The notes under the pieces: generated by a model
What the model was told of the DNA's origin: nothing
What the model saw: only the letters and a program-made list of their open reading frames with translations
Databases searched by the model: none
Made by a program: the position numbers and the translations under genes
NCBI RefSeq assembly: GCF_900167525.1
Contig: NZ_FUZQ01000001.1
Location: forward strand, 62,001-126,000
Reading direction: 5' to 3'
Length of the DNA: 64,000 bases
Origin: Krasilnikoviella flava
GTDB lineage: Bacteria > Actinomycetota > Actinomycetes > Actinomycetales > Cellulomonadaceae
Part shown: in pieces, positions 27,952-62,494 of the stretch
How positions within the stretch are numbered: the first letter of the stretch is position 1
Layout of the letters: every line of letters starts with the position of its first letter

Positions 27952-28022
27952 GCGAGGTAGTGCCTCCGGTCGCGCGGTCGTACCCCGCGTGCCCTACCCG
28001 CGAACGGGAGGCACTACCTCGC
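27952..28022 (-). repeat. 71-bp palindromic element, copy A (3' side of the DUF559 gene)
   Basis: The tips are perfect 16-bp inverted repeats (GCGAGGTAGTGCCTCC at 27952-27967 and its complement at 28007-28022). Read on the minus strand, the whole 71 bp aligns without gaps to the element at 29058-29128 (54 identical positions by hand). The minus-strand tip contains the TAG stop of the DUF559 gene. It also lies between convergent genes, so it may serve as a terminator. Confidence 0.88.
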
Positions 28023-29003
28023 CACCTGGCGTCGGGCCGCTTCCGCGAGCGCGCGCCGGATCCGGGCGACCAGACGGTCCGGATCAGCGAGGTCCTCCCA
28101 CGTGACGTGCAGGAGCGTCCACCCCGCCTCCGTGAGCGCGTCGTGCCGACGCTTCTCCGCGAGAAGCCGCTCGCGAGGGTCGCCGTACTCGCCGCCCGAG
28201 TACTTCACGGTCCCGTCGAACTCGATGCCCACCGCCAGACCGGGCCAGCCCAGGTCGATCCACACGGTGCCGCGCCAGGTGTCAACGGCGACGGCGAGGT
28301 CCGGCGGCTCCAGGCCGGCCGCGTCGAGGAGCCACCGCAGCCTCGTCTCTCCCACCGACTCCGATCTCGCGTCGGCGAGCTCCACGATCCGCCGTGCCTG
28401 CCGCACCCCGGGCTTTCCAGCGGCCTCGGCCAGGACGGCCTCGGCCACACGTCGATCGGCACCCGCACGGAACGCGGAGTCGGCGACGACGAGCGCCCGC
28501 TCCCCCGGCAGCCAGCGGGCGCAGTCGACCATCGTGCGTTCGAGGGTGGACACCGGCAGCCCGGCAGGCACGACGGTCCGGTCCTTCGCGGGGAGGTCGA
28601 CGGGGTGCCGGTGGACCGGGCTGCCGCTGCCTCGCCGGACCTTCGGCTTCCACCCCTGGCTGACGTGGACCTCCTCGGCGAGCCGGTAGACCCAGAGCCC
28701 GTGCAGCAGCGCGGCCGTCTCGTGACTGAAGCAGTACGCGGTCCGCAACGTGGCTGCCGTCGCGGCGACCAGCGCGAGGACGCGCTGCTCCCGCTGCCGC
28801 GCGACACCGCCGTCCGACGACGCCGGGCCGGTGTACTGCCCGCGCCGGACGCGCACCAGCTCCCCGCGACTCGCGCGACGCTCGATCACGGAGCGCCAGG
28901 CCTCGTCGTAGCGCACGAGGGCCGGCAGCGGTCGTGGTCGGGGAACGGCGGTGTCGCCCGGCCTGCGCGCGTCACGCCGGGTCGGTGGGGCGTCGTCGGG
29001 CAT
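28014..29003 (-). CDS. DUF559 (Vsr-like) putative endonuclease with N-terminal AbiEi-like winged helix
   Basis: A 329-residue protein. The first 100 residues resemble the winged-helix part of AbiEi-type antitoxins (RYDEAWRSVIERRASRGEL...VRRGQYTGP). The C-terminal 110 residues are a DUF559 domain of the very-short-patch-repair nuclease superfamily: E in SVGETRLRWLL, Asp in WIDLGWP, Glu and Asp in VGIEFDG, then EKRRHDALTEAGW. The usual His after the FDG motif appears as Lys (GTVKY). No cognate toxin gene is adjacent. The gene is bracketed by homologous 71-bp repeats, one of which provides its stop codon. Function unknown. Confidence 0.75.
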   Translation of the reverse strand: MPDDAPPTRRDARRPGDTAVPRPRPLPALVRYDEAWRSVIERRASRGELVRVRRGQYTGPASSDGGVARQREQRVLALVAATAATLRTAYCFSHETAALLHGLWVYRLAEEVHVSQGWKPKVRRGSGSPVHRHPVDLPAKDRTVVPAGLPVSTLERTMVDCARWLPGERALVVADSAFRAGADRRVAEAVLAEAAGKPGVRQARRIVELADARSESVGETRLRWLLDAAGLEPPDLAVAVDTWRGTVWIDLGWPGLAVGIEFDGTVKYSGGEYGDPRERLLAEKRRHDALTEAGWTLLHVTWEDLADPDRLVARIRRALAEAARRQVAR

Positions 29004-29057
29004 GCCGACAGCGTGGCAGGACGACGGCGTCTCCGTGCGAGGCCTGTGGACGGCGCC

Positions 29058-29128
29058 GCGCGGTAGTGCCTCCCGCTTCCCGGTAGTGCTCGGCGGGCAC
29101 GACCGGACGACGAATGGCACTACCGCGC
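29058..29128 (+). repeat. 71-bp palindromic element, copy B (5' side of the DUF559 gene)
   Basis: Perfect inverted tips of 15 bp when extended two bases outward (29056-29070 with 29116-29130), plus an internal half-copy CGGTAGTGCT at 29081-29090. It has the same length as copy A and about three quarters identity, but opposite orientation, so the pair brackets the DUF559 gene as a long inverted repeat. It lies in the divergent region just upstream of the glgE promoter. Confidence 0.88.
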
Positions 29129-51640: not shown

Positions 51641-51665
51641 GCCTGCGGACACGCCCACCGCCGCC

Positions 51666-51711
51666 GGTCGAGCCTGTCGAAACCCAGAGCCGGGTCTCGA
51701 CAGGCTCGACC
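51666..51711. repeat. Dispersed palindromic repeat between convergent genes
   Basis: Arms GGTCGAGCCTGTCGA (51666-51680) and its complement (51697-51711), with four further pairs inside after one mismatch and a 6-base centre. It is the same family as the element inside narG. Lying 25 bases after glgB and 11 bases before the end of the convergent gene, it may act as a bidirectional terminator. Confidence 0.85.
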
Positions 51712-51722
51712 GACGGGCGCGC

Positions 51723-62378: not shown

Positions 62379-62418
62379 TTCCGGACGCGCCGAGGTAGTT
62401 CCGGACGCGCCGAGGTAG
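62371..62418 (+). repeat. 20-bp tandem repeat (2.4 copies) at the end of the TetR gene
   Basis: CGAGGTAGTTCCGGACGCGC occurs at 62371-62390 and 62391-62410, with a third partial copy CGAGGTAG at 62411-62418. The first copy provides the TAG stop. The core GAGGTAGT resembles the tips of the 71-bp elements beside the DUF559 gene. Confidence 0.8.
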
Positions 62419-62419
62419 C

Positions 62420-62459
62420 GCGAAAGGGCGGCCCGCATTGATGCGGGCCGCCCCTTCGC
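62420..62459. terminator. Strong bidirectional terminator between TetR gene and nrdF
   Basis: A 19-base stem (62420-62438 with 62441-62459, one mismatch) with a 2-base loop. Weaker pairing extends outward to 62410 and 62469 using the GGTAG repeat tip. It serves the convergent TetR and nrdF genes. Confidence 0.85.
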
Positions 62460-62494
62460 ACTACATCGGCGGATCTCGGACTATCTCAGCAGGG

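Follow-up and report, generated by a model that had tools for sequence, protein, structure and literature searches.

Bacterial genomes commonly contain dispersed palindromes, and for some of these no enzyme is known. The locus described here raises the question of whether a nuclease gene and the palindromes on either side of it belong together and, if they do, which of the two moves. It lies in a window (the whole stretch of DNA analyzed, 64,000 nucleotides) on contig NZ_FUZQ01000001.1 of Krasilnikoviella flava, whose 4.85-Mb genome (G000) is of the same genus as genomes of Isoptericola species, a group of soil bacteria; our comparison set comprises 18 genomes of this genus. A sequence-only reading of the window had drawn a parallel with REP/RAYT and had suggested that such proteins may recognize, spread, or be spread with the palindromes, or that gene and repeats form a non-autonomous cassette. 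We present here an analysis of the locus, its relatives, and the copies of its repeats elsewhere.

The gene and its two palindromes

The AbiEi-nuclease fusion gene occupies positions 28014 to 29003 on the minus strand, an open reading frame of 329 amino acids and the sole gene between those for an FAD-binding oxidoreductase and GlgE (neighbors named with Pfam). The predicted fold of its product (AF2 model; mean pLDDT, 92.8) is that of AbiEi joined to I-Bth0305I/Vsr. Residues 27 to 211 (28371 to 28925, minus strand) form an AbiEi-like region, a winged helix plus a nucleotidyltransferase-like domain, and residues 216 to 324 (28032 to 28358, minus strand) form a Vsr/EDxHD-type nuclease domain. 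The PADLOC AbiEi profile matches the window protein with an E value of 2.6e-11, and it matches all 66 aligned homologous proteins. The composition first proposed, an AbiEi-like part with a Vsr-superfamily nuclease, is upheld, and its domain name, DUF559, is corrected: no match to PF04480 (DUF559) was found in the window protein up to an E value of 10. Pfam gave nothing at 0.001 and two weak matches below threshold (MTES_1575, 0.022; AbiEi_4, 0.34). Among the 66 homologues, 19 match MTES_1575 (PF18741) at 0.001 and 3 match PF04480. Neither neighbor of the window gene is an AbiEii-type toxin gene. Two more copies of the family in the K. flava genome look broken (C2:256618-257342 and C4:82768-83465; L089, L090, and L280), with split frames, one containing an internal TGA, and with motif repeats alongside.

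Two 71-bp palindromes, neither assigned a strand, bracket the gene. One lies at its 3′ end (27952 to 28022), where the tip of the element supplies the minus-strand TAG stop codon (28014 to 28016), and the other lies upstream, between the gene and glgE (29058 to 29128), with a gap of 54 bp to the ATG (29003). The two match at 54 of 71 positions when one is inverted and at 50 of 71 in direct register, and their perfect inverted tips are 16 and 15 bp long (palindrome scores, 16 and 15). The lengths, the inverted match, the tips, and the placement relative to the gene had been read from the letters alone, and the observation was confirmed.

Within each element are four 9-bp motif copies, of sequence GGTAGTGCC or a variant of it (a single copy is degenerate); the first two are forward and the last two inverted, and same-strand copies are about 20 bp apart. 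In the element at the stop codon, these are an outer GGTAGTGCC (27956 to 27964, plus), an inner GGTCGTACC 20 bp from it (27976 to 27984, plus), a degenerate inner inverted copy placed by its register with 29096 to 29104 (27989 to 27998, minus), and an outer inverted GGTAGTGCC (28010 to 28018, minus). The upstream element has an outer GGTAGTGCC (29062 to 29070, plus), an inner GGTAGTGCT 20 bp from it (29082 to 29090, plus), an inner inverted GGTCGTGCC (29096 to 29104, minus), and, 20 bp from the last, an outer inverted GGTAGTGCC (29116 to 29124, minus). Of the five occurrences of GGTAGTGCC in the window, four lie in these tips; the mean count after shuffling is 0.34.

Palindromes with a score of at least 15 and a span of 55 to 100 number six in the window and zero in each of 12 block-shuffled windows, so strong palindromes as such are not unique to the nuclease locus; only the two that flank the gene carry GGTAGTGCC in both tips. 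Another strong palindrome, at 62408 to 62471, has a terminator-like core and a tip, CGCCGAGGTAGCGC, similar to the array motif of the L158/L160/L161 group. A palindrome at 51661 to 51716, with arms like GGTCGAGCCTGTCGA, has no visible likeness to the nuclease-flanking element.

Related loci, their ends, and their inheritance

A dehydrogenase-type gene is present in 16 of the 18 genus genomes, and in 9 of these 16 the AbiEi-nuclease gene stands between it and glgE, in the window orientation in 5 and reversed in 4. Palindromes or motif arrays occur on both sides of the gene in all nine; nowhere in the genus set do relatives share the gene at this site without either repeat. The flanking motif types are alike within a genome and differ between genomes (GGTAGTGCC, GGTCGTACC, AGTAGTACC, AGTAGAGCC, and GGTCGAGG), and both ends in I. 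cucumis (G002) are decayed and of the GGTCGTA type. The interval from the dehydrogenase gene to glgE was also found without the nuclease gene in some genomes: of the seven gene-less sites, four have a gap of 69 to 92 bp without such a palindrome, those of G004 and G009 hold unrelated genes and no such palindrome, and that of G008 keeps a lone decayed palindrome. About two of seven empty sites examined resemble a motif tip (seen in G010 and G011). Conserved GGCATGTTGT and CTAGCGTGG blocks lie upstream of glgE in the oxidoreductase-glgE gap of G003, G005, G007, and G008, with a variant in G004, and the CTAGCGTGG block occurs in the window too.

The comparison was extended to 93 distinct loci, comprising 35 of 53 genus matches and 76 usable loci among the 80 best of 464 relatives from named genomes, minus 18 duplicates. 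Scored by their best local match, the two flanks of a gene have a median of 46 at these loci (n = 93), compared with 18 for flanks of different loci and 18 for control genes. Ends matched with a score above 30 at 84 of the 93 loci, the window locus among them with a score of 41, and at 2 of 53 neighboring control genes; the remaining 9 loci missed the threshold. The association of matched ends with these genes, whose absence would have counted against the sequence-only proposal, is strong.

These ends are built of a 9- to 12-bp motif repeated every 19 to 22 bp, and same-strand spacings peak at 20, 19, 21, and 22 bp (129, 113, 27, and 16 cases, respectively). Counting loci with at least two motif copies on each side does not discriminate (87 of 93 own pairs versus 51 of 93 mismatched pairs), so a spacing test was used instead. 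A shared pair of 10-mers 18 to 23 bp apart on both sides was present at 64 of 93 loci when a gene's own flanks were compared, in 9 of 93 comparisons of mismatched flanks, and in none of 93 after shuffling; this stricter test was failed by 29 loci, that of the window included. The motif picking takes a GC-rich chance motif at some loci (e.g., L142, L176, and L233). By a simple classification, the 84 matched loci comprise 55 with palindromic ends on both sides, 16 with one-way arrays, and 13 that are mixed. All 16 one-way arrays are mirrored about the gene and none run the same way, with at least 2 of the 16 resting on a doubtful motif. The L157-L170 group was considered as a class without flanking repeats and rejected as such, since mirrored arrays occur in the five members examined and also in others.

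Across the phylum, 23 of 246 sampled genomes have a family match, the window's own included. Of 29 distant loci (window gene excluded), 17 score above 30 and 12 do not; the 99th percentile of mismatched pairs is surpassed by 20.

By their neighboring genes, the 93 loci fall into 18 neighborhoods under a loose rule that joins loci on any shared neighbor at 45% identity. Proteins were compared for 90 loci (three were dropped), 86 of which lie in neighborhoods with more than one locus. Each of the 86 has its closest relative by protein within its own neighborhood, compared with about 8 of 90 under shuffled labels; the gene is thus inherited in place across genera. No match was found among 72,556 plasmid records at an E value of 1e-15 or among 50,697 phage records at 1e-10. 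A moving cassette with the gene as cargo, one form that the sequence-only reading had allowed, is rejected on this agreement and on the lack of plasmid or phage matches at these thresholds. Instead, it is the palindrome that appears to spread; the gene keeps its position and inverts there.

The gene is flipped relative to its neighbors in 2 of 13 multi-locus neighborhoods. At the window site, at least five flips are required on a tree of 20 loci (L201 left out), a rough figure because 9 of its 20 inner branches are drawn open. Motif type, with labels assigned by eye, follows the protein clades on the same tree. Within cluster A, that of the window site, the two ends of one gene resemble each other more closely than does the median pair of ends taken from different loci in 21 of 21 cases. 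In 17 of 21, though, an end at another locus is a still closer match, so ordinary descent accounts for much of the likeness between ends. Recombination between the flanking palindromes would allow the gene to be inverted or deleted and would account for both the flips and the lone palindrome of G008.

Solo copies, a proposed mechanism, and its alternatives

At an E value of 1e-4 or better, the K. flava genome contains five copies of the element, the two that flank the gene and three solos (C10:42320, C10:54379, and C2:68879). The solos at C10:54379 and C2:68879 lie between convergent genes and overlap at least one stop codon. The copy at C10:42320 is inside a continuous mogA-moaE-like frame (names by eye; L087), and I. 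cucumis has a like-framed copy (L075). A composite search with ten element families gave matches in 17 of the 18 genus genomes, gene-flanking copies included; copy numbers are rough, 30 candidates per genome having been scored among the matches listed. I. chiayiensis (G001) has 62 matches, mostly one place matched on both strands, and at least 22 solo copies, whose gene context was read with a crude ORF caller.

Among the matches listed, those to the AGTAGTACC and GAGGTAGCGA families come from G006 and G017 alone, two genomes that have these families at their nuclease genes. Copies of the GAGATCGAC type occur in G005 and G008, and the motif is absent from the gene loci covered there (two of the three in G005). 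The I. cucumis solos carry GGTAGTGCC, unlike the decayed ends of its own gene, and G014 has GGTAGTGCC solos besides solos of its own gene's type.

Most of the solo sites compared are empty in at least one other species. The site at C2:68879 is empty in the close relatives G010 and G011, and that at C10:54379 is empty in G011. Ten I. chiayiensis solo sites were probed and six aligned; five of the six are without the full element in at least one other species, and at four of those five the element is shared with G005. At one of these, the L303 site, G003 keeps an apparent half element. At the sixth, the L296 site, I. chiayiensis and I. sediminis have a GGTCGTACC-type element and G012, a third species, has a GGTAGAGCC-type element; in each genome this is also the motif type at the ends of the nuclease gene. 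In I. chiayiensis, the L296 flank also holds a one-way CGAGGTAGGC array, like the L167 motif, adjoining a palindromic solo of a different family. No target-site duplication is visible in the alignments of empty and filled sites, which have diverged. Two I. chiayiensis genes outside the family are bracketed by pairs of elements of one family within about 1 kb (L302:1501-2345, with no Pfam match, and L308:1503-2619, with a sub-threshold match to DUF4287), so bracketing by elements is shared by genes other than that for the nuclease; these genes are perhaps cargo or perhaps lie between paired solo copies.

We think it probable that these loci represent a widespread two-part system, a sessile AbiEi-Vsr nuclease gene with a cognate element that both flanks the gene and is dispersed, and that the system is an independent analogue of REP/RAYT with nuclease-driven copying of the element. 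Typically, the element is a palindrome of 60 to 90 bp with about four motif copies of 9 to 12 bp ordered right, right, left, left, the same-strand spacing of 19 to 22 bp corresponding to two helical turns; in some clades, unidirectional arrays mirrored about the gene take the place of palindromes. The AbiEi part would bind the motif copies, by analogy with AbiEi and Rv2827c on arrays of 23-bp repeats. AbiEi is described as binding two 23-bp inverted repeats and Rv2827c as filling four at once (PMC7319586), a parallel to the proposed binding of AbiEi modules to an element with four copies. By analogy with I-Bth0305I, the nuclease may act as a dimer that cuts in or next to the element; the I-Bth0305I target, on which this enzyme is described as forming a dimer, spans nearly 60 bp (PMC3943268), close to the length of the present element. 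Recognition and cutting of its own element by the protein are a prediction by analogy. Repair of such breaks from other copies could homogenize the elements within a genome and seed new solos, and the same repair could invert or delete the gene between its two flanking copies.

A bolder form of this proposal is that a second, independent nuclease-palindrome partnership exists across Actinobacteria, in which an AbiEi-guided PD-(D/E)XK/Vsr nuclease both maintains its own family of elements and spreads it, a change in specificity leading to a rewriting of the elements throughout the genome, as is proposed for REP/RAYT with its unrelated HUH enzyme. We offer this form tentatively, as a serious possibility.

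The elements might instead be operators, with the AbiEi part repressing its own gene through the arrays before and after it, perhaps by looping, the dispersed copies serving as binding sites or decoys, and the nuclease having an ordinary defense or toxin activity with no part in the spread of elements. AbiEi-family proteins are described as autoregulating through 23-bp repeats, the four filled at once by Rv2827c among them (PMC7319586), and the AbiEi profile match in every aligned protein fits such a role. The start codon is a median of 95.5 bp from the last motif copy upstream, and mirrored arrays suit looping. This explanation leaves unaccounted for the copies close to the stop codon, the first downstream copy lying a median of 15.5 bp from it, as well as the dispersed copies with empty orthologous sites and the inversion of the gene; nor does an AbiEii-type toxin gene adjoin the window gene. 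We consider the operator explanation unlikely.

It is quite improbable that the gene is a homing endonuclease gene whose product cuts empty alleles, with the palindromes as cut sites and the gene copied in by repair. Homing genes normally interrupt their target, whereas here both flanking target-like elements are present in full. The gaps of 69 to 92 bp at four of the seven gene-less sites contain no cut site of this kind, and the vertical-looking inheritance at all 86 testable loci also argues against homing.

Passive palindromes, which would be either bidirectional terminators or generic repeats that collect between genes at 3′ ends, ordinary homologous recombination being the cause of inversion, are a very poor prospect: several copies do lie between convergent genes, overlapping or adjoining stop codons as REPs are described to do (PMC3733652), these loci often contain terminator-like palindromes of another type, and two unrelated I. 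chiayiensis genes are bracketed too, but matched ends are rare at control genes, unidirectional arrays obey the same rule without being palindromes, and motif type follows protein clade. The terminator version in particular is weakened by the unidirectional arrays and the control genes.

If the two-part system is as proposed and an AbiEi-Vsr nuclease maintains such repeats, it would be a new enzyme class to look for behind dispersed palindromes. The matched loci, with their many motifs, would supply many natural protein-motif pairs for reading the recognition code of AbiEi-type modules, and a role would be suggested for proteins labeled as little beyond a domain of unknown function or an endonuclease.

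Comparison with known systems

In the open-licence literature, we found no paper linking DUF559 proteins, AbiEi-nuclease fusions, or MTES_1575 proteins with flanking palindromes. The MTES_1575 Vsr-type REase domain (PF18741) has been described inside giant HEPN-helicase proteins, and the descriptions of these proteins in PMC3710099 mention no repeats, which sets them apart from the present loci. With the AbiEi and Rv2827c antitoxins of type IV toxin-antitoxin systems, the window protein shares the AbiEi antitoxin domain; it differs in being fused to a nuclease, in having no adjacent AbiEii toxin, and in having repeats on both sides of its gene and elsewhere in the genome. With I-Bth0305I and Vsr (EDxHD), it shares the fold of the catalytic domain, but its DNA-binding part is AbiEi. 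Unlike EDxHD homing genes, the present gene is intergenic with full flanking elements and has no sign of horizontal spread.

The closest resemblance is to REP/RAYT, including REPtrons and REPINs. RAYT genes are described as single-copy and vertically inherited (PMC8049555) and as having on their flanks palindromes that recur elsewhere, for the most part beyond 3′ ends (PMC3733652), with several repeat families per genome, each possibly having its own enzyme gene (PMC3733652; PMC8049555). The present gene is likewise sessile, vertically inherited, and flanked by palindromes that are also dispersed, with flanking on both sides in all nine genomes at the window site and matched ends at 84 of 93 loci (16 of these being one-way arrays). 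In the parallel first drawn, the linkage of gene and palindromes and the resemblance to REP/RAYT therefore hold, and the gene as a moving cassette does not, since the nearest protein relatives share a neighborhood in 86 of 86 testable cases.

The differences are in the parts. The enzyme is an AbiEi and Vsr-type nuclease, not a Y1 HUH transposase. The Y1 transposase profile PF01797 had no match in any of the 18 genus genomes and was positive in 5 of 14 control genomes; a RAYT that mobilizes these palindromes is rejected for the genus on that result. The element is made of about four motif copies spaced two helical turns apart, in place of the REP hairpin and its GTAG foot: GTAG is present in the window element and absent from many other families here, and there is no general GTAG or CGTC foot. 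Copies found here number tens at most, compared with the more than 100 described as usual for REPs (PMC2817692). Because the defining Y1 transposase is missing and there is no general GTAG foot, the system is best read as an analogue of REP/RAYT, not a member, and as not homologous to it. It is new in kind in that its enzyme, its element design, and its probable recognition module are all unrelated to those of RAYT and REP; if any pairing of an enzyme with dispersed palindromes counts as one kind, it is a variant of that kind.
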